From NCBI RefSeq assembly GCF_018613315.1, contig NZ_JAGGQL010000025.1:1-56666 (forward strand): DNA of 56,666 nucleotides. Reading direction: 5' to 3'. The notes below the pieces were generated by a model. The model saw only the letters and a list, made by a program, of their open reading frames with translations, was not told the DNA's origin and did no database searches. This stretch comes from Bacillus sp. ISL-37 (GTDB taxonomy: Bacteria; Bacillota; Bacilli; Bacillales; Cytobacillaceae). The position numbers and the translations under genes are program-made. This document shows, in pieces, positions 1 through 8,721 of this stretch; within the stretch, counting starts at the first letter, position 1, and every line of letters starts with the position of its first letter.

Positions 1-64
1 CGCTGGTCGTAACGACGTAAGGTTCTATCTTAAGAAAAACGAGACGTACCAAGTTGACTTGTAA
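1..64 (+). CDS. 3' end of a gene cut by the window edge
   Basis: Reading from base 2, an open frame of 20 codons ends in TAA at 62-64. The peptide ends in KKNETYQVDL and is followed 7 bases later by a terminator-like hairpin, which is what a real gene end looks like. Too little is present to identify the family. It is the only plus-strand gene in the left 5 kb and probably belongs to the same accessory island. Confidence 0.5.
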   Translation, partial: AGRNDVRFYLKKNETYQVDL

Positions 65-71
65 AATCGTA

Positions 72-108
72 GGGAAGCAGGAAAACTGCCTCCCTTTTCA
101 TTTTGGAC
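72..108 (+). terminator. Rho-independent terminator after the left-edge gene
   Basis: GGGAAGCAG (72-80) pairs with CTGCCTCCC (86-94) around a 5-nt loop with one mismatch, followed by a short T-rich run. It lies 7 bases after the stop codon of the partial plus-strand gene. Confidence 0.6.
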
Positions 109-228
109 AGGAAATCCGTCAGTTTTAGGACAATTAGTACCGTCAATTTCCGGACATTGTAGAACGTCATTAACACTCCAATGCATCGGCAATTATTTAA
201 GCAGATAATAATTACTAAAATGTAACCT

Positions 229-984
229 TTATCTTTCAACCTCAAAGTTAAACAAGTTGGCAAGTCTGACTAACTCTTCAGAATCACCCTGCTTTTTATT
301 CAACAACCCCTGATTAGTCATATAGTATACATAATTTTTGGTAACGATATATAACGCAGCTGAGCCATATTCTGTTGTAGGTTCATGTAGAAATGCCCGT
401 TGACCTGAAACATTTATTTCTGTGACTTTTGTTCCGTAGAGGGGATGTTCGGGAAAGAAATACTTACTCCTTTCTTCAACTGATCCCGTTTCATTCTTTG
501 TATAATGTACGGAAATAAACCTTCCTTCTGAAGTCGGGTAAAAGGCCTGTGTAAATATTTGTTCTTTACTACCTATATTTTCAACAGATACTGCAAGAAG
601 TGGTTCTCCTGAGATTGTATTAATCTCCTTGTAGGCATCCATTGGATAAACGACATATTCCATCCCTTTTTCGGTTAAAACTGGTGTCTCTTTCCCGTTG
701 ATCACTTCCATTGTATACAGCTTTTCTTCATTTGATAGCATTGCTGAGACAAATGAATCTTCATTCCCCAATTGAATAATTAGCAAAAAAAGAAGAGAAA
801 AAGTGATACTTATAGATGATACGTAACCGAAAATCTTGAAAGCTCGAGATTTAACCTTTTCCTTATAAATTTGCCTCTCCAGTTTTCTTCTGACTAAATC
901 GGCTTGCTCCTGACTCCATTCCAAATCATATTCTACTTTCTGAAGAGCACGATTATAAGTGTTCAATTCACTTTGTATGTTCAT
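229..984 (-). CDS. Membrane protein paired with the ECF sigma factor (possible anti-sigma)
   Basis: A 251-aa protein with a charged, probably helical cytoplasmic N-terminus (residues 1-48), one hydrophobic segment at about residues 50-70 (ITFSLLFLLIIQL) and a large extracytoplasmic C-terminal domain with no motif I recognise. Its start overlaps the 3' end of the sigma-factor gene by 17 bp, so the two are translationally coupled. This topology and coupling are typical of ECF anti-sigma factors. I see no clear zinc-binding HxxxCxxC motif, so the role rests on position and topology. It could instead be a sensor or accessory protein of the sigma system. Confidence 0.65.
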   Translation of the reverse strand: MNIQSELNTYNRALQKVEYDLEWSQEQADLVRRKLERQIYKEKVKSRAFKIFGYVSSISITFSLLFLLIIQLGNEDSFVSAMLSNEEKLYTMEVINGKETPVLTEKGMEYVVYPMDAYKEINTISGEPLLAVSVENIGSKEQIFTQAFYPTSEGRFISVHYTKNETGSVEERSKYFFPEHPLYGTKVTEINVSGQRAFLHEPTTEYGSAALYIVTKNYVYYMTNQGLLNKKQGDSEELVRLANLFNFEVER

Positions 985-1495
985 TTAACCCCGACTCCTT
1001 AATTAATCTTTTTTCCAAAGCTAACATTCCACGATGCAATGTGGACTTAACTTTACTTTCCGAACAATTCAATATTTCTGCTGTTTCGGTAATTGAAAAA
1101 CCCTTGATCTTTCTAAGGATGATAACTTCCCGGTGCGATTGTTTAAGTGCACTTAGTGCTTCGTGAATTTCCTTTGAACTTTCTTTAAGCTGGACCACAT
1201 TTTCTGGCAATAGTTTAATGTCAATTTGAGGTTGGAATAACTCTTTAAAAAAGCGAATTGGCTTTTGTTTTCTCATGTGGTCAACAGTCACATTATGAGC
1301 GATACTGAACAACCATGTTTTTTCGCTAGAATCTCCTTTGAAAGTATGATGATATTTATAGGCCTTAAAAAATGTTTCCTGAGTTAAATCCTCAGCTTGC
1401 TGATAATCTTTAGTAAGCATAAAAATAAATTTAAAGATTGTTTGATGATACAGATTGTACCACTCATGAATATCCTCTTCCCTGTAGTCAGCCAT
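968..1495 (-). CDS. ECF-type RNA polymerase sigma factor
   Basis: 175 aa, the normal length for an extracytoplasmic-function sigma factor. Region 2 is at about residues 10-80: the DLTQETFFKAYKY segment corresponds to sigma 2.2 and WLFSIAHNVTVDHMRK to 2.3-2.4. Region 4 is at about 110-165, with a helix-turn-helix at SITETAEILNCSESKVKSTL. It directs RNA polymerase to a small regulon. It is followed by an overlapping membrane protein that probably holds it inactive. Upstream at 1528-1555 lies a canonical ECF promoter, suggesting autoregulation. The start ATG follows GGAGAG at good spacing. The subfamily is not assignable by eye. Confidence 0.9.
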   Translation of the reverse strand: MADYREEDIHEWYNLYHQTIFKFIFMLTKDYQQAEDLTQETFFKAYKYHHTFKGDSSEKTWLFSIAHNVTVDHMRKQKPIRFFKELFQPQIDIKLLPENVVQLKESSKEIHEALSALKQSHREVIILRKIKGFSITETAEILNCSESKVKSTLHRGMLALEKRLIKESGLNEHTK

Positions 1496-1527
1496 CTAAT
1501 TTCTCTCCTTGTTAATTCACTTAAATC

Positions 1528-1555
1528 TTAGACGTGTGGGCTAGAAAAAGGTTTT
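1528..1555 (-). promoter_or_regulatory. ECF-sigma promoter, probably autoregulatory
   Basis: On the minus strand AAAAC is separated by 16 nt from CGTC (CGTCTAA). This matches the Bacillus ECF pattern of an AAC-containing -35 and a CGTC/CGTA -10. It ends 33 bases before the sigma-factor start codon, so the sigma factor probably drives its own operon. Confidence 0.7.
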
Positions 1556-1601
1556 GGTTTATTTTATTATTTTTTTTATATTTTTTTAACGAGTTCTATA
1601 G

Positions 1602-1636
1602 CAAAAAGAAGGAGCTGGCATAGCAACTCCTTCTTA
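1602..1636 (-). terminator. Terminator of the 236-aa gene
   Basis: AAGAAGGAG and CTCCTTCTT form a perfect 9-bp stem around a 12-nt loop. On the minus strand it is followed by T residues. It sits downstream of the gene ending at 1748 and separates it from the sigma-factor operon. Confidence 0.75.
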
Positions 1637-1747
1637 AATATAATGATACCGATAATATTCGACTCCTTACTATGTCAATCCTTCTTCAACATTACTGCAT
1701 CGATAGTTAAAGAAAACATCCCCTTACACCCGTAAGCAAAATATGAA

Positions 1748-2458
1748 TCACGGCATAAGAATTTTTGGGTAATCTTTTGCAGCAGCTTTGAATTTACTTG
1801 CCCCAATTACTTCTCGTGCCTTTTTTTCCAGATCAGCAATGGTTGGGTCGAAGGGATTTTCCGTCAATTCAGTAATAATTCCCTTTTTACTCAATTTCTT
1901 TATGCGATGCCAAGGAAAGTCATTAAAAGATTCCTCTTTATTTAAGTAATCTACAAAGACCTGAGAATAAAAGTTAATCCAAAAAACACCTGGAATTCTT
2001 TCTTTTAATGTACCTGTTATATGTTGCCTTTCCTCAGCCTCTTCATCGGTTACATAGCCGTAAATAGCATCAAAACAGCTCACTAAACCTTCGAACAATG
2101 GCAAAATATCGTTCTTTATTTGATAAAATACTTTTTTATTTACATAGATGGTCAGATGGTTAAGACTTAATTCTGTAGGGTGCAACCACCAATGAGTTTG
2201 GAACCAATATCCTTTACCCTTTCCAAGCATACCTCCTGATTTTCCAATCATTTTATTGGTTTCAAAATCATATATACCAGGTTCTTCCTTAGCCCACATA
2301 TCAATAGAATCTTCAATTGTAAAAGGCTTTTTGACAGGTTCAAATAAACCAATTTTGTCTATATTCAGTCCATACTTGTTCATTAAAACAAAAAATTGCT
2401 TTGCATATTTCTCAGTACCAGTATGCTTGATGGAATAAAGGCTTATATAAATTCCCAC
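1748..2458 (-). CDS. Unrecognised 236-aa protein, possibly immunity-like
   Basis: No catalytic motif is recognised. The protein is soluble, with no signal peptide or membrane segment, and rich in aromatic residues. Two conspicuous stretches are GKGKGYWFQTHWWLHP (about residues 75-90) and IPGVFWINFYSQVFVDYL (about 155-172). The second resembles, by memory only, the large family of type VI-immunity-like proteins (DUF3396 type); I am not sure of this. The start is a GTG preceded by GGGGTGAT at proper spacing. It stands alone between two terminators in the island. No toxin gene lies next to it, so an immunity role is only a guess. Confidence 0.6.
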   Translation of the reverse strand: MGIYISLYSIKHTGTEKYAKQFFVLMNKYGLNIDKIGLFEPVKKPFTIEDSIDMWAKEEPGIYDFETNKMIGKSGGMLGKGKGYWFQTHWWLHPTELSLNHLTIYVNKKVFYQIKNDILPLFEGLVSCFDAIYGYVTDEEAEERQHITGTLKERIPGVFWINFYSQVFVDYLNKEESFNDFPWHRIKKLSKKGIITELTENPFDPTIADLEKKAREVIGASKFKAAAKDYPKILMP

Positions 2459-2604
2459 TGTATCACCCCGCTGCTTATACCATTTATTTTATTCAAAATT
2501 CTAAGTCCTTCTTCAACATAACTGCTCCTATAGCTTAATAAGGAATTCAACAAAAAAGTACATTAATCCTTCTTTGTCAACTCACACTTTACTTTCACAA
2601 ATTT

Positions 2605-3351
2605 TTAGTTTTTTCTTTTGAAAACCTTATTTCGTTCTATAACTGTACATCCATTATTCTGGAATGTTTTAAGCATTGGAAGGTTGTTGTGACCAGTACA
2701 GCCAATATAATAAATCGCCATAAAGTCATTTTTTAATATTTCTAATGCTTGCTGATGAAGAAGTTTGCTTTTTCCCTTCCCTCTTTCGTTTGGAATAATG
2801 CCAAAATAAAATATCCTTCCTTCTTCTGAAGTCCCTGGTTCTATATGGGGCATAACTACTCCGATTGGATTTCCTTTATCATAAGCAATAATACAAGATT
2901 TCTTATAGTTTGGGCCTAACTCCAACTCTACACTTCGCATTTGTTCATCAACATCTAGCGAAGAAGGTGCATTTAATGATCCTTTCATAGATTCCTCCCA
3001 AACCCTTTTAAACTCTGCTAACGAAAGTTCGTGTAAATCCTTTAGTAAGAACCCGTTTTCAACCTTAGATGAATCATCTAAAACCTTGTGAACAGTAACA
3101 TTTTCATCATGTAACTTAAACCCATTTTCTATTAAAAGAGAGTCTACTTCTTTGTTGAATTTACTATTAACCAGTATATTCACATTTTTACAGTTCTTTA
3201 TAAATGACTGTCCCATCAGATATGTTATAAGTTCAATTAGTTCTTGATTCGCCAGACTTTTTGTATCTTCTATAGTTACAAAGTTTTCTCCTTTTACAAT
3301 TTTTATTCTTGCCAATAAACTAGAATTGCTTTGTAAATTCTTTACCTCCAT
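2605..3351 (-). CDS. GNAT-family N-acetyltransferase
   Basis: 248 aa. The C-terminal half (about residues 95-245) has GNAT fold signatures: a strand with a hydrophobic core (IIAYDKGNPIGVVMP), then the acetyl-CoA pyrophosphate-binding segment IIPNERGKGKSKLLHQQAL (R/Q-x-x-G-x-G/K form) and a final strand MAIYYIGCTGHNN. The N-terminal 90 residues look like a degenerate second GNAT domain. The substrate is unknown. Downstream on the same strand is an MFS exporter with its own start and a terminator-like hairpin, so the two may not be co-transcribed. Confidence 0.8.
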   Translation of the reverse strand: MEVKNLQSNSSLLARIKIVKGENFVTIEDTKSLANQELIELITYLMGQSFIKNCKNVNILVNSKFNKEVDSLLIENGFKLHDENVTVHKVLDDSSKVENGFLLKDLHELSLAEFKRVWEESMKGSLNAPSSLDVDEQMRSVELELGPNYKKSCIIAYDKGNPIGVVMPHIEPGTSEEGRIFYFGIIPNERGKGKSKLLHQQALEILKNDFMAIYYIGCTGHNNLPMLKTFQNNGCTVIERNKVFKRKN

Positions 3352-3379
3352 CTTTTCAGCCCCTTAAAGCACAAATATA

Positions 3380-3412
3380 AAAGCATGGGACCACAGATGA
3401 TCCGCAGTCCCA
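3380..3412 (-). terminator. Terminator of the MFS transporter gene
   Basis: GGGACTGCGGATCATCTGTGGTCCC, read on the minus strand, forms a stem. It is followed by ATGCTTTTAT, a moderate T run. It lies between the MFS stop codon (3422) and the acetyltransferase start. Confidence 0.6.
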
Positions 3413-3421
3413 CTCTATCAA

Positions 3422-4639
3422 TTAATTATTCAATTCGATTATATTCCTAACAAACAAGTGCTTACTTTTAAAAACAATTAAACTGACCACTGCAAGCAGT
3501 ATTCCTGAGATCATAAACACGATTCTTATTCCCAATAAATCTGCTAACAGTCCCATAACAAGAGAACCAACGCCAAAGATTCCAGTACCGATAGCTCCTA
3601 ACGAAGTATAAACCGTTGATAACTTTTCTTTTGTAACGCTGGTTTGTATCACTGTTTGTTGAGGTATGCCTTTAATTTGACCAAAAAGCCCTACAAAGAG
3701 CGACAATAGGAGTGCAGCGATTGGTATGCTGTTTATGCTAAATAGTAATGTAACTAAGGAGCTTAGGATTGAACCAATAAATATAAAGGTCCCCAATTTC
3801 TTTTCAATGATTGAAGAATATTTAATACAATAAACACTTCCTAAAATCAATCCCAAAAAGTAGGCACCATTGATAAATCCCCACCACTGTCCACCAACGT
3901 CTAAGGCATCGTTAACGAACACCAGGAGTATGGCTGCTATCCAAACCGTTCCTGCCATTGTCTCATATAGGTCCAGCCAAGCGATTTTTCTTAATACTGG
4001 AGTGTTAGATAAAGTTACCCATCCCTCTGTAATCTGTTCAAATTTCCCTTTTGCCTCAATTCTATTATCAGCTACATTTTCTAATAGACTAAGCAAGATG
4101 CTTGCTACTATAAACAAACCTCCTGCCAACCAGACAAGTTGCTGTGAGCTCAATATAATTAAGAATAAACTCCCAATGAACCACATCACTGCTTGTATGA
4201 TCTGCGTAACAGTTTCTGCAAGTCCATTAGCTTTAATTAATTGACTAGGCTTAACATAGTATGGAATTAATGTCTGTCTAATTGGATTTGCACATCCATC
4301 TAGTAAAGCAATCAATCCTATGATTAAGAAAATCAAATAATAATTTGATGTTGTAACTCCAACTAACATAAATCCCAGAATAAAAAGCAGAATAGTCTTT
4401 CCGATTTGCGATCCAGCCATTAACCATTTAAGATTTACTTTACCCACCAAAAGTGGTGTTAACAGACTAGATATAAACATGGAAGAAGTAATTGTAAATG
4501 GTACAAATGAAGAAGCGGTTGCCGAGCCTGTTAATTCAAAAATCGTACTAATAATACTGACCATATACAATACATCGCCAATATTAGCGAGTGATTGACC
4601 CAATAGTAATAAAGAAAAGTTTTTATTCAAGTTCATCAT
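3422..4639 (-). CDS. MFS transporter, probable drug or metabolite exporter
   Basis: 405 aa with about 12 hydrophobic segments spread along the protein, the normal size and topology for a major facilitator superfamily exporter. The first helix contains FSLLLLGQSLANIGDVLYMVS, typical of the MFS_3 / enterobactin-exporter-like group. The protein resembles macrolide-efflux-type MFS proteins in Bacillus, but the substrate cannot be read from sequence. Tandem ATG codons are present at the start, with GGGGGA upstream. It is an island gene and is AT-richer than the core genes to the right. Confidence 0.85.
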   Translation of the reverse strand: MMNLNKNFSLLLLGQSLANIGDVLYMVSIISTIFELTGSATASSFVPFTITSSMFISSLLTPLLVGKVNLKWLMAGSQIGKTILLFILGFMLVGVTTSNYYLIFLIIGLIALLDGCANPIRQTLIPYYVKPSQLIKANGLAETVTQIIQAVMWFIGSLFLIILSSQQLVWLAGGLFIVASILLSLLENVADNRIEAKGKFEQITEGWVTLSNTPVLRKIAWLDLYETMAGTVWIAAILLVFVNDALDVGGQWWGFINGAYFLGLILGSVYCIKYSSIIEKKLGTFIFIGSILSSLVTLLFSINSIPIAALLLSLFVGLFGQIKGIPQQTVIQTSVTKEKLSTVYTSLGAIGTGIFGVGSLVMGLLADLLGIRIVFMISGILLAVVSLIVFKSKHLFVRNIIELNN

Positions 4640-5003
4640 TTTATGTCCCCCAATTTCTGAAATGAATTTTTCTTGAATAGGGGAACTTTTAAATTGGATT
4701 GTTCATTAAATATTTACTCCTTTCATATATCTGATAAATCTGGGGACTAGATTTATCACAAGAATTGTCAGTATCATTATTAAATGTTTATATGAACTTC
4801 AGGCATATTTAAGACACTTAAAAACATTGTATTTGTACTTCTCCATATACATTTCAACACTTCGAATGAATTAGCTCATTAGAAGACTTAGTTAAATTAC
4901 CTAAGTTTATTAGATATTTTACAAATTCTATTCACCAAGTCTAAATTTCTATAAAACTGGCAAGAATACCTTCTAAAATCCTAATTAAATAGGAGGGATT
5001 AGT
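4640..5003. other. 364-bp divergent intergenic region with one dyad
   Basis: AT-rich sequence between the divergent MFS and tyrosine-recombinase genes. It must hold both promoters, but no strong sigma-A promoter stands out. The clearest structure is a perfect 9-bp inverted repeat, TGATAAATC (4732-4740) and GATTTATCA (4750-4758), with a 9-nt centre. It could be an operator or an RNA hairpin in the MFS leader. Otherwise I see nothing. Confidence 0.45.
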
Positions 5004-5843
5004 TTGTTACTATCAACTGCTTGGAAGTCCTATGAAGCCGATAAACGTATTGAAGGATTCTCACCATTTACCTTAAAAGCATATGGTATTCAGGCAAAGC
5101 TGCTCATAGGCTATTTTAAGGACCCAATTATTGATACCTTCAATACAGAAGAATTAAAGAAATATCTTGTTACTCAAGGTAAGGATTTAAAACCCTCAAG
5201 TTTAGCCCATAGAATCCGGTTTATGAAGTCATTGTTTCGCTGGTGTCACGAGGAAGGCCATTTAACCATAAATCCAGCAGCAAAGATCAAGGAACCTAAA
5301 GCCGGCAAGAGAATCCCAAAGTTTCTATCAGAAAGGGAGATTGAACTTTTACGTGAAGCCTGTATTAGCCCTATGGAAAAGGCACTATTCGAATTAATGT
5401 TTTCTACTGGCTGCAGAATTGGAGAAATCGCTGCACTTGACCGCAATTGCATTAATTGGTCTAACCGCTCTGCCATCGTCAGGGGAAAAGGTGACAAGGA
5501 GCGTGAAGTGTATTTTAATATTCGGGCTGAATTATGGCTTAAACGATACATTGACAGCCGTCAGGATAAAGGTCCGGCCATTTTTGTAACAGAGAGACAG
5601 CCACACAGGATGAGTATTGCCCAAATGAGGTATTACATTAAGAAAATCTCAGCGCGTGCCGGCATAGATAAGGAAATTCATCCCCACCAACTCAGACACA
5701 GCTATGCTACCCATTTATTGAATAATGGAGCACCAGTTGAAGTTATCCAAAGCCTTTTGGGCCACGAGAAAAGTGAAACCACTCGAATATATGCCCAACT
5801 AAGCGGAAGGCTGAGACAGGAGTTTTACCAGAAATACTTCTAA
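5004..5843 (+). CDS. Tyrosine recombinase of the XerC/XerD type
   Basis: 279 aa, two domains. The N-terminal core-binding (SAM-like) domain is at about residues 1-95 and the catalytic domain at about 105-279. The catalytic set is complete: Arg in STGCRIGEIAAL, Lys in RGKGDKERE, HxxR in HPHQLRHSYATHLL, His in LLGHEKSETTRIYAQL and the Tyr nucleophile at its end. The start is TTG at 5004, 7 nt after AGGAGG. This is an additional XerC/D-like enzyme; the housekeeping pair lies elsewhere in Bacillus. Its place in the island suggests a role in element excision, integration or dimer resolution. It may be an island passenger rather than the integrase. Confidence 0.9.
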   Translation: MLLSTAWKSYEADKRIEGFSPFTLKAYGIQAKLLIGYFKDPIIDTFNTEELKKYLVTQGKDLKPSSLAHRIRFMKSLFRWCHEEGHLTINPAAKIKEPKAGKRIPKFLSEREIELLREACISPMEKALFELMFSTGCRIGEIAALDRNCINWSNRSAIVRGKGDKEREVYFNIRAELWLKRYIDSRQDKGPAIFVTERQPHRMSIAQMRYYIKKISARAGIDKEIHPHQLRHSYATHLLNNGAPVEVIQSLLGHEKSETTRIYAQLSGRLRQEFYQKYF

Positions 5844-5852
5844 TAAAGCGAG

Positions 5853-5880
5853 GAAGCAACGCAAATTATGCGTTGCTTCT
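5853..5880 (+). terminator. Hairpin after the tyrosine recombinase gene
   Basis: A perfect 11-bp stem, GAAGCAACGCA (5853-5863) with TGCGTTGCTTC (5869-5879), starts 10 bases after the stop codon. The T run after it is weak, so it may act partly as an RNA stabiliser. Confidence 0.6.
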
Positions 5881-5960
5881 GTACTCTTGCACAAAGTCAG
5901 TAAGGTACCAAATTAATATTTTTCATACCAAGATACATAAAGTAATATAACCTCAACATT

Positions 5961-6311
5961 TCATTCCCATTGCTTTAGTAATTCAATAATTTCTATTTGT
6001 ACATGTTCATCCCAACCGTTTTTTGCTCTTTCTAAACATCCCGACATGTCTGCTCCGTTTTCTAGCAAAAATGACGCAATCTCAACAAAGCCAAAATAAC
6101 AAGCAATTATTAAAGGAGTTCGGCCTAAACGATCCAATTGATTCACATCAGCACCTTTTAGAACTAAATGTTTTGTAAAATCAATATTTCTATAGTGAAC
6201 AGCCCAGTATAAAAGACTTTGCCCCTGAAAAACTTCATTAACATCGCATGTGTTTAAATATTCTTTAAACCCATCAATATCATTTCTATGCACTAAATTT
6301 GTAAAATTCAC
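5961..6311 (-). CDS. Small ankyrin-repeat protein
   Basis: 116 aa with about three ankyrin units. The clearest are QSLLYWAVHYRNIDFTKHLV (about residues 31-50), a unit with DVNQLDRLGRTPLIIACYFG (about 56-75) and a partial one ending in SFLLENGADM. There is no signal peptide. The start is a GTG with AAGAGG upstream. Ankyrin proteins bind other proteins and have no intrinsic reaction; the partner is unknown. It sits alone between the two recombinase genes on the opposite strand, as accessory cargo. Confidence 0.8.
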   Translation of the reverse strand: MNFTNLVHRNDIDGFKEYLNTCDVNEVFQGQSLLYWAVHYRNIDFTKHLVLKGADVNQLDRLGRTPLIIACYFGFVEIASFLLENGADMSGCLERAKNGWDEHVQIEIIELLKQWE

Positions 6312-6539
6312 AGTAACCAGCCTCTTTTATCTTCTAGATCCAATGAATATCTAGTTTTAACATAATTCTTAAGAATCCATGATTTCAACATATTAACCAG
6401 CTTATTTAGTTAAGTATAGATACCCTATTATTAACAAACACTTTTTTACACTTCAAGTACTATCTTTGTTTCCATGGCTTCTAGTAATAAACAAACTTCC
6501 GTAACGCCTCTTATTAAATCAATAGTCAGTTATTTTTAT

Positions 6540-6578
6540 CTCCTTTAATACCAATACTGTTATAAACAGTTAAAGGAG
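6540..6578 (+). promoter_or_regulatory. Nested inverted repeat covering the recombinase ribosome-binding site
   Basis: CTCCTTTAA (6540-6548) is the exact complement of TTAAAGGAG (6570-6578), which contains most of the Shine-Dalgarno of the serine recombinase. Inside it is a second perfect dyad, ACTGTT-ATA-AACAGT (6556-6570). In RNA the outer stem would hide the ribosome-binding site. In DNA the inner dyad could be an operator. No regulator is identified. Confidence 0.6.
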
Positions 6579-6585
6579 GATCAAA

Positions 6586-8316
6586 ATGAATGGAATAAAA
6601 AGTGTTGCAATATACTGTCGTGTGAGCACTGAAGAGCAAGCAAGTGAAGGCTATAGTATTTCTGCACAATTACACACTTTGCGTCAATATGCTTCTTTAT
6701 ATGGTTGGCATATTGCAGAGGAGTATGTTGATGAAGGTATTAGTGGTAAGGACATTAAAGGCCGCCCTGCATTGCAAAAGCTTATTGCTGAGGTTGACAA
6801 GAATAAATATCAGGCTGTCCTTGTTTGGAAGATATCTCGTCTTTCTCGAAATATGTTGGATACTCTTGTATTACTAGAAAAATTTGAGGTGTATGATGTG
6901 AAATTCATCTCATATTCAGAGAACTTTGATACAGCTACCCCAATTGGGAAATTGGTTGTGCAATTGATGGCTTCTATTGCTGAGATGGAGCGAAATACCC
7001 TATCTGAAAACGTTAAACTCGGAATGACACAAAGAGCGAAAGAAGGTAATTGGAACGGAGGAGTAGTATTCGGATATGACTCCATAAAGAAAGAGCTCGT
7101 TATAAATCCTGATGAGGCTAAAATTGTTCAACATATTTTCCAAATGTACGCTGATGGAAAGGGACTTAAAGCTATAACTAACCATCTAAACAAGGCAGGT
7201 TACCGCACCAAAAGGAATCGACATTTTTCTATAAATGGTATTGCCACCATATTGGATAACCATATCTATATTGGAAAAATACGTTGGCTACAAGTTGAAA
7301 ACTGGGATAAAAAACGAAGACGCGGGAAAAACCCCAACCCTATTTTAGTGGATGGAAAACATGAAGCAATTATATCCCATGATCTTTGGAGTATTGTTCG
7401 AGCAAGGAGACAAAGTAAATCCTTTAAACAACGTCAATCTAATGAGCCATTTCTATTAAGCGGTATTCTTCGCTGTCCTGATTGCGAGCAAGGCATGGTA
7501 CCATCAATAACAACTTATACACTTAAAGATGGAAGCAAACGGAAGCATCGCTACTATGTATGTGGGAATTTCCACAACAAAGGTTCTGCTGCTTGTAAAA
7601 CGAATTCAATTAAAGCTTACGAGGCCGAAGATGCAATCATTAATCGTATAACCTCGTTCCTAAATGATTCAGAAGACTTCCTTAAGAGCATTGATAACAT
7701 TAATAAGGAAAACATTCAATCGAACAAAGAAATAAAAGAACAACTAGACGTAATTCAACTACAACTGGATGAAACAGATGCCATGCAAGCGAAATATATG
7801 GAAGCATTTGAGCAAAGTTTGTTTCCTATAACTATCTTACAAGATCGGTTACAAAAGGTGTCTAAACAAATAAGTGAATTAGAACAAAATAAAAATGAAC
7901 TTAGCACTCAACTAAGTTCATCTGAATTCAAGGTTATTAAACCTGACTTGATTAAGCATTTATTAGAAAAATACGTTGAAGCATTCCAACAATCTTCCAG
8001 AGAGAAGAAAAAGCAACTTTTTCAACTTTTACTTAAAAAAGTAACAGTAAAGCAATCTGTTTCTCGTTCTCGAACTGTAGACAAAATTGAACTAGATTTT
8101 GACTTTTCCGAAGTCAATTTGTCCAAGACATTTACACTGATCCACTCACTTTACTTTGAACCAGATGATACAGAGGAAACGCCCTCTTTTTTTCCTGATT
8201 CAAACGACAAAATGCCTCCTTATCTTCAAATTTTTTTGCCTCTATTTATGGTACGGTTCACCGCGATTGATCCTGTAAGCCCGATAGATTTGCTCGACGA
8301 GGATCAAACGCATTAA
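6586..8316 (+). CDS. Large serine recombinase (integrase-like), running into rlmH
   Basis: 576 aa, three-domain large serine recombinase, cytoplasmic. The catalytic resolvase domain (about residues 5-150) holds [10 protein letters not shown] with the Ser nucleophile, WKISRLSRN and [10 protein letters not shown]. The recombinase domain (about 165-265) is followed by a zinc ribbon (CPDC about 305, C..C at YVCGN and AACKT) and a coiled coil at about 365-430, as in CcrA/CcrB/CcrC and phage integrases. Such enzymes cut two att sites and exchange strands for directional integration. The start ATG follows TAAAGGAGG. The last 25 codons are antisense to the 3' end of rlmH (stop at 8242). The C-terminus is therefore partly host DNA, which suggests that this end of the island joins rlmH here. 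Confidence 0.92.
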
Positions 8317-8721
8317 TTGGTGAGGGAAAGTCATTTTGGAGAAGGAAAGTTGCTCATCTGCCCTCTTCAAAACTTCATCGCTCAGTCCCAGAGATCCACC
8401 GATGACAAAAGCGATTTTACTTTTTCCGTACGTCGCTAGTTTATCGAGAGTGTCTGCAAGCTCTTCTGACGATTTGAGTTTCCCATTAATGGCTAATGCG
8501 ATGACATATGTATCTGGGCCAATTTTTGCGAGGATTCGCTCTCCTTCTTTTTGCTTGACCTGGACCATTTCAGTTTCGCTCAATTCCTCCGGTGCTTTTT
8601 CATCTGGTACTTCGATGACTTCCACTTTTGCATAGCTTCCGAGTCGTTTTAGGTACTCCTCAATCCCCTGTTTCAGGTATTTTTCTTTTAATTTTCCAAC
8701 CGTCACGATCGAGATATTCAC
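8242..8721 (-). CDS. rlmH: 23S rRNA (pseudouridine-1915-N3) methyltransferase RlmH
   Basis: SPOUT-class methyltransferase that methylates pseudouridine 1915 in helix 69 of 23S rRNA on assembled ribosomes, using SAM. The SAM-binding knot is seen in [11 protein letters not shown] and the conserved tail ends in INRGEPYHK. Starting at GTG 8721 gives 159 aa, exactly the family length; an upstream ATG at 8727 is possible. The 3' end is intact although it carries the island junction, as in staphylococcal orfX/rlmH where SCC elements integrate without breaking the gene. It overlaps the serine recombinase tail to tail by 75 bp. The upstream region is rich in DnaA-box-like motifs. Confidence 0.95.

Follow-up and report, generated by a model that had tools for sequence, protein, structure and literature searches.

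SCC elements of Staphylococcus insert at the 3′ end of rlmH, are bounded by repeats that include the last codons of this gene, and carry one or two large serine recombinases (LSRs) along with variable cargo (PMC10061031, PMC6222049). Islands at rlmH have also been published from outside Staphylococcus. ECC, described in Enterococcus in 2018, shares the rlmH target and has 50-bp att sites with inverted repeats, two LSRs, and variable cargo (PMC6222049), while a 2023 study reported rlmH islands in other Bacillota, including Bacillus and its relatives, with tandem copies, empty sites, and genetic-conflict cargo (PMC10061031). The latter set includes 17 A-family polymerase-SSB pairs, all closely associated with a helicase (PMC10061031). 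Helicase association aside, the island of Bacillus sp. ISL-37 analyzed here resembles all of these in the respects named. A preliminary description of the locus held that it would widen the SCC concept; an rlmH island outside Staphylococcus is indeed present, but it is not the first of its kind (PMC6222049, PMC10061031). It differs from ECC in its host genus and in having an att site inside a recombinase gene, an arrangement that the excerpted ECC report does not describe (PMC6222049), and its clade, mostly without a helicase, is set apart from the polymerase-SSB islands as these are described (PMC10061031). Unlike SCC, where the recombinases form a central operon, this island has an LSR that scores far under the Ccr cut-offs and lies at the att end; in its clade attP falls inside the LSR gene, and an SCC-type helicase was not found in 22 of 23 whole elements.

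Attachment sites within genes have precedents of other kinds, one of them Mx8, a Myxococcus phage whose integrase is a tyrosine recombinase. In Mx8, too, attP lies inside the integrase gene and integration creates a new 3′ end, the present case differing in that it concerns a serine recombinase of an rlmH island rather than a phage (PMC6070905). Archaeal suicidal (SSV-type) integrases likewise hold the recombination site within their own gene; they differ in being tyrosine recombinases and in having the gene broken into two pieces (PMC8371274). In mycobacteriophage BPs, attP sits in the 3′ part of a gene and integration alters the C-terminus and stability of the product, although that gene encodes the repressor and not the integrase (PMC4557955). 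Among the matches listed in the open-access literature, we found no published attP inside a serine recombinase gene. This placement in an rlmH island looks to be the new part of our findings; rlmH islands outside Staphylococcus are not new. We read the locus as an SCC-like island at the 3′ end of rlmH that was inserted by its own LSR and has its attP inside the LSR gene, and we put the probability of this reading at roughly 0.83.

The recombinase, its target, and the extent of the island

The window, by which we mean the whole 56,666-nucleotide stretch of DNA analyzed, makes up contig C18, one of the 62 contigs of a 4.7-Mb genome; its features are collected in Table 1. The LSR ORF contains Resolvase, Recombinase, and Zn-ribbon domains (Pfam PF00239, PF07508, PF13408). 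A structure model (mean pLDDT 76.9), which with a pTM of 0.45 offers a rough view of the domains and C-terminal region only, adds long coiled-coil helices at residues ~362–445. These are the features of a large serine recombinase: a Resolvase N-domain, a Recombinase domain, a zinc ribbon, and long helices forming a coiled coil. Ser14, Arg85, and Arg88, which we take to be catalytic, are unchanged across 28 aligned LSRs. All predicted domains and the coiled coil fall within residues ~1–510; after these the model has a weak short helix within the PPYLQ-FLPLF segment (545–553) and then a tail of low confidence (pLDDT ~40).

The LSR and rlmH ORFs are convergent and overlap by 75 nt, such that LSR residues 559–576 are encoded by rlmH DNA and not by island DNA. 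We rejected the idea that this tail is a conserved domain, as it is antisense rlmH and differs in length. rlmH itself is intact and exceeds the NCBIfam equivalog cut-off (266.5 bits against 172). Thus, the complete LSR converging on an intact rlmH and the AT-rich cargo island beyond it, both reported in the preliminary description, are borne out: G+C is 0.31–0.40 on the island side (1–8000) versus mostly 0.40–0.49 beyond rlmH, where some 1-kb windows are also low (0.35–0.39). The best NCBIfam model for the LSR is CcrB, at 383.6 bits against a cut-off of 900, followed by CcrC (325.5 against 900) and CcrA (130.9 against 700); with the same library, S. aureus CcrA (825) and CcrB (1137) exceed their cut-offs. 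By curated score, the window LSR is neither a ccrA, a ccrB, nor a ccrC product.

Table 1. Features of the window (contig C18) on the island side of the insertion and at its junction with rlmH
Feature	Position	Strand	Basis
251-aa protein overlapping ECF sigma factor gene	229..984	-	Pfam/NCBIfam: no match at E 0.001
ECF sigma factor, cargo	968..1495	-	PF04542, PF08281
236-aa protein, cargo	1748..2458	-	Pfam/NCBIfam: no match at E 0.001
GNAT acetyltransferase, cargo	2605..3351	-	PF00583
MFS transporter, 405 aa, cargo	3422..4639	-	PF07690
XerC/XerD-like tyrosine recombinase, 279 aa, cargo	5004..5843	+	PF00589; under NCBIfam cut-offs
Ankyrin-repeat protein, 116 aa, cargo	5961..6311	-	PF12796 and others
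Near part of island, visible	1..8258	.	Second att copy on C60; relatives' gene order
LSR ORF, 576 aa	6586–8316	+	ORF list; Pfam PF00239, PF07508, PF13408
Island-carried part of LSR, residues 1–558	6586..8259	+	Pfam; frame open into att core
LSR ORF tail in the integrated state, 18 residues + stop	8260..8316	+	Antisense rlmH strand; frame test
Near att site, rlmH 3′ end + near arm, GAACCGTACCATAAATAGAGGCAAAA	8234..8262	-	Near/far end comparison, 35 relatives
rlmH, target gene, 159 codons, intact	8242–8721	-	NCBIfam equivalog

Among the cargo, the nearest NCBIfam model for the MFS transporter is the ryptide export MFS, at 209.1 bits against a cut-off of 575. The 251-aa protein is possibly the anti-sigma partner of the ECF sigma factor whose gene it overlaps. 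The XerC/XerD-like gene places a tyrosine recombinase within a serine-recombinase island.

Direct repeats of the rlmH end did not rise above chance within the window, because contig C18 ends at base 1. We searched the genome for the rlmH 3′ end GGNGAACCNTAYCAYAARTRR, allowing up to two mismatches and using the reversed pattern as control. This gave two mismatch-free matches with identical letters, rlmH itself and a 21-bp copy at C60:226776-226796 that marks the far island end; the control gave none, which rules out chance as the source of the C60 repeat. The preliminary description had placed the other junction outside the window and proposed a search there for a second rlmH-end copy; the junction is indeed outside, and the copy is on C60. 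Outward of this copy lie genes that, from reading their sequences, we take to encode a CoA-disulfide-reductase-like protein, DegV, and malate:quinone oxidoreductase (mqo), in DNA that matches the DNA downstream of rlmH in genus members. Near mqo (L059 7113-10668 being the position of the Gabija pair below, L059 123-682 that of the region meant here), apparent tandem repeats with a ~52-bp step are visible as stepwise alignment matches, also in other genus members. Inward lie an Mrr-like nuclease, a Gabija pair (C60:228612-232167; PADLOC scores of 517 bits for GajA and 558 bits for GajB), and several serine recombinases, which cluster at C60:232323-239240 (L059 10824-17741) and comprise proteins of 502, 519, and 451 aa plus short ones. 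A different Gabija pair occurs in the Virgibacillus salexigens element (L088).

From the way genes are ordered between rlmH and mqo in relatives, we infer that C18 and C60 adjoin and that the island would run past the end of C18 into C60, from 241491 down to 226776. Its minimum extent would then be 8.2 kb on C18 and 14.7 kb on C60, in addition to an unread gap between them. The two contigs are unjoined, and the att site on C60 is fused to an apparent relic of a near end, so that the parts could instead belong to different islands, with the C60 repeat a relic of another element. We consider this highly improbable: C60 has the chromosomal genes that relatives carry downstream of rlmH, its far terminus matches the clade of the window LSR, and its partner LSR, described below, falls in the group found alongside LSRs closely related to that of the window.

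Relatives, paired ends, and empty sites

We scanned GTDB genomes using a four-LSR alignment as query, which returned 95 relatives; the best 80 of these were analyzed. Within these 80, LSRs at least 66% identical to that of the window number 35 (L067–L098, L111, L115, L117), nearly all from Bacillaceae and related families and including the closest relative, M. boroniphilus (L067); as the genomes share ancestry, counts over them are not independent. A convergent rlmH adjoins the LSR at 32 of the 35 loci. The three others (L068, L075, L076) have a non-rlmH flank, yet their att core and its position are unchanged, and overall the core was found at the LSR, with at most two mismatches, at 35 of 35 loci. 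Relatives with this recombinase next to other genes, which the preliminary description had named as counter-evidence, number three, and these nonetheless keep the core. The proposal made there that the rlmH 3′ end is the att site finds support in the second exact copy, in these 32 loci at rlmH, and in the empty site presented below. The 45 less similar relatives among the best 80 of 95 gave an rlmH match in 11 cases, some of them distant within the fetched stretch.

Whole-genome searches for both ends covered 34 of the 35 genomes (all save L094), with far ends sought by a pattern built from the first seven of them. Near ends were present in 34/34 and far ends in 31/34, with no matches in either control. 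In 24 of the 34 genomes the two ends lie 3.6–42.1 kb apart on a single contig, with order and strand as expected, taking the shortest fitting pair per genome and excluding six near-end matches with two mismatches; differently ordered same-contig pairs number three, in two genomes. Counts of whole elements, 23 in all, exclude G037, whose end pair lies off the contig of its LSR. Far-end sequences were analyzed at one per genome (31) plus the window's own, giving 32, with 12 further matches uncounted.

When the flanks of the M. boroniphilus island (sister genome G001) are joined at the core, they align with the uninserted genome G005 over their full length (603 of 603 nt, 92%), and they also align across the junction with G014 (87%) and G008 (84%). 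The comparison with uninserted relatives proposed in the preliminary description thus yields the empty site expected of an SCC-type insertion at the rlmH 3′ end, and the rlmH end, directly repeated at the two junctions, completes this likeness. For the window genome, both sides of the joined flanks match relatives, with ~117–140 nt left unmatched after the core, depending on the relative. At its start, this unmatched DNA on C60 resembles a near end; fused to this relic, the far end forms a 46-bp attP-like site with one mismatch (C60:226768-226813). Our reading is that it may represent the remains of an earlier tandem copy. With up to three mismatches, attP-like sites occur in 3 of 193 genomes of the family, C60 of the window genome among them.

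Within the genus, the rlmH end is a hotspot. The rlmH regions of 19 genus members (at most 20 kb each, four being shorter at 1 to 9.4 kb) contain a second rlmH-end copy downstream, with at most one mismatch, in eight cases. In G017 this copy comes after a second, diverged rlmH; the region (C3:1-18656) has that second rlmH at 63% identity, then two mismatch-free rlmH-end copies. The insert of G011, 18.3 kb long and carrying an LSR of 42% identity, ends at an rlmH-end copy, beyond which the sequence matches, at 93% over 806 nt, that found directly after rlmH in G016. In the inserts of G004 and G011, a helicase lies just before the LSR, as in SCC, and the LSR of this SCC-type relative G011 is not beside the att site.

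An attachment site within the recombinase gene

Comparison of the near and far ends delimits the crossover. The base preceding GA varies by host (T, G, C, or A), being the wobble position of the codon that precedes Glu, whereas the whole sequence from GA as far as the A-run is island-derived. In L077 and some others, the host sequence at the far junction leaves the near-end sequence of the island at the sixth base (GAACCA in L077). Since the host base before GA varies and the far-side hosts diverge at the sixth base, the crossover is confined to GAACC, and its dinucleotide would be the GA at 8258-8259; one far end reads GACCC (L152). The joined ends consist of two 24-bp arms that flank GA and are identical at 16 of 24 positions, a value reached by 1 of 10,000 shuffles, giving the island the terminal inverted repeats typical of SCC. 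A length of 50 bp is in line with the 42–69 bp given for serine-integrase attP sites (PMC4068962). At the far junction, the displaced host end reads EPYHK in 28 of 32 cases and EPYHK-stop in 24, while the present rlmH owes its last codons (Pro-Tyr-His-Lys-stop) to the island side of the crossover. A search for excised circles or phages with this attP found none: in viral contigs, neither the joined attP nor the near arm had an exact match, and plasmid and phage records held only LSRs less than 60% identical.

In 32 of 36 loci (the window and its 35 relatives), the LSR ORF passes through the core, and the four that end before it (L095, L097, L111, L115) are all broken genes. Each of the 31 intact, in-frame genes, that of the window among them, is open through the core into rlmH in one shared frame, and M. 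boroniphilus (L067), frameshifted by an indel, crosses the core in another. The frame is kept even though the linker preceding the core varies in both length and sequence. Counted from the match start, the 31 intact genes encode 568–623 residues in the integrated state, depending on the host. Just before the core, the peptide PPYLQ is conserved, with codon changes that are mostly synonymous (Leu: CTT, TTA, CTA, CTC, CTG). The last nine codons before the crossover show no synonymous change (pS 0), the pattern expected of a DNA site that is itself fixed. Read in the LSR frame, the far arm encodes Thr-Val-Val-Ile-stop or a close variant, with the stop present in 32/32 far ends (31 TAA, 1 TGA) and a first Val codon of GTG in 19, GTA in 10, GTT in two, and GCG in one. 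In the LSR frame, pN/pS is 0.37 for the four far codons (0.91 and 1.76 when read in the other frames) and 0.32 for PPYLQx (0.98 and 2.69), and the linker before PPYLQ gives 0.68; coming from related rows and few codons (four at the far end), these values serve as indications without a p-value. They are signs of what may be protein-level constraint on both pieces of the LSR gene.

The far and near ends are naturally joined in Aquibacillus albus, where the LSR frame is read through the joint. We rejected this joint as a complete tandem LSR gene: it holds only the last ~110 LSR residues, preceded in turn by unrelated sequence and the contig end, and is a 5′-truncated remnant. A joined site in Lederbergia lenta encodes PLFMIRFTVVI-stop on a shorter broken LSR piece. 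With these two joined sites both being broken genes, no complete LSR gene with the Thr-Val-Val-Ile-stop end was found among the relatives. In Tumebacillus (L109, 9986-12028), an LSR of 38% identity shares the core frame, with a computed joined end of MIRFTVSL-stop. The LSRs of L103, whose core is damaged, and L114 are open into the core, and that of L101 stops before it; the joined-end row for L112 was excluded. The trait of carrying attP in the LSR gene may be older than the clade of the window LSR. As in the suicidal integrases, the reconstructed attP is inside the integrase coding sequence; given that the integrated LSR ORF keeps all its domains, an inactive product is not expected from the sequence.

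Partner recombinase and a model of integration

A second LSR accompanies the first in 19 of the 23 whole elements. It lies directly upstream in 12, on the same strand at 1.8–5.2 kb in three, and inverted and farther away in four. The four partnerless elements are G050, G052, and G053, which have a broken first LSR, and G042, in which the LSR gene is open; partner matches in G050 and G052 were discounted as cross-hits of the first LSR. In a quick LSR tree, the partners, including the 502-aa LSR on C60, form their own clade (24 rows, SH-aLRT 99). S. aureus CcrB sits on a long branch in this tree, so a position of the window LSR within staphylococcal CcrB was not adopted. Within the subclade of the window, the partner is distant and inverted, and these partners group together (five rows, SH-aLRT 99). 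These features suggest that two recombinases work as a pair, much like CcrAB, although the partner tested scored best against CcrB and not CcrA (202 vs 113 bits). LSRs of the 519-aa type occur in three and those of the 451-aa type in two of the 23 whole elements; the elements of Rossellomorea (G023) and Paucisalibacillus (G025) are those in which the 519/451-aa pair recurs.

This frequent companion raises the question of which recombinase does the work. In SCC, CcrA and CcrB cooperate (PMC6222049), and with a partner in 19/23 whole elements, the true integrase could be the 502-aa protein on C60, or else the 519/451-aa pair, leaving the window LSR as a passenger or helper. We judge this unlikely, as it is the window-type LSR that adjoins the att core in 23/23 whole elements and 35/35 loci, while the 519-aa and 451-aa types are confined to the few elements just given and four elements do without a partner, one of them (G042) with an open LSR gene. 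In the reading we favor, the window LSR would catalyze integration and excision, and the second, distantly related LSR of the island probably acts together with it.

SCC-type helicases were sought by tblastn with three queries, two of them from the genus members G011 and G004. One of the 23 whole elements (G033) has such a helicase, 27 kb from the rlmH side and not adjoining the LSR, and in L068 one lies beyond the core, outside the element of the window-type LSR; the same queries match six less similar loci. None was found by tblastn in the read parts of the window island (C18 and C60), where the SCC arrangement of a helicase just before the recombinase gene or genes is accordingly not seen. 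An ordinary member of the SCC/ECC group, with Ccr recombinases and a helicase-recombinase core, would show the same target gene, direct repeats, and defense cargo, and would have CcrB as its closest NCBIfam model, all as found here. It is nevertheless quite improbable that the island is one, with its LSR disfavored by the curated CcrB cut-off (383.6 against 900) and placed at the att end rather than in a central operon, and with the helicase so rare in its clade and lacking from the parts read.

For the SCC-like island inserted by its own LSR, we propose the following model. The island circle would carry the 50-bp attP, two 24-bp arms around the dinucleotide GA, within the last LSR codons, stop codon included. 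attB would span the Glu-Pro codons close to the rlmH 3′ end, and its recombination with attP would interrupt both genes, such that integration amounts to an exchange of 3′ ends between the convergent int (LSR) and rlmH. rlmH would gain the island-derived Pro-Tyr-His-Lys-stop end and, because this new end is equivalent, stay intact. The Thr-Val-Val-Ile-stop of the LSR would move to the far island end, 3.6–42 kb off in relatives, and the integrated LSR would read into antisense rlmH, acquiring a tail of host-dependent length. A complete LSR of 562 residues is predicted only for the circle or an intact tandem copy. With the end of the integrated LSR swapped in this model, excision would fall to the tailed form, the partner, or a complete copy elsewhere. 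Formation of the circle, a need for the partner LSR, and an effect of the C-terminal swap on activity or stability are further proposals of the model.

What the exchange does to the protein allows two readings. In one, the split is real but neutral: both forms work alike, and the conserved end reflects the folding of a short C-terminal helix. The model, in which little beyond a weak helix and a low-confidence tail follows residue ~510, and the span of integrated ORF lengths among hosts, from 568 to 623 residues, are consistent with this, while the constraint on the far-end codons suggests a circle-specific end worth keeping; we regard the chances as evenly balanced. In the other, which we put forward tentatively and with the odds somewhat against it, the LSR C-terminus would act as a sensor of the integration state: the circle would yield the complete form (...MVRF-TVVI) and the chromosome the form tailed by antisense rlmH, with a difference in stability or contacts between them setting integration versus excision.

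These data define a clade of rlmH islands, some with Gabija anti-phage cargo, that spans many genera of Bacillaceae and related families and has a recombinase layout unlike that of SCC. They add a bacterial serine-recombinase case to those in which an att site would lie inside the integrase's own gene, and the sites defined by sequence, a 50-bp attP and an attB in rlmH, are a candidate tool for DNA integration. What directs serine integrases toward integration or excision is a long-standing question, and here two versions of one protein give access to one candidate answer. Should the C-terminus indeed sense the integration state, the att site itself would carry a built-in control of directionality, and would do so in a family of bacterial serine recombinases found across many genera.
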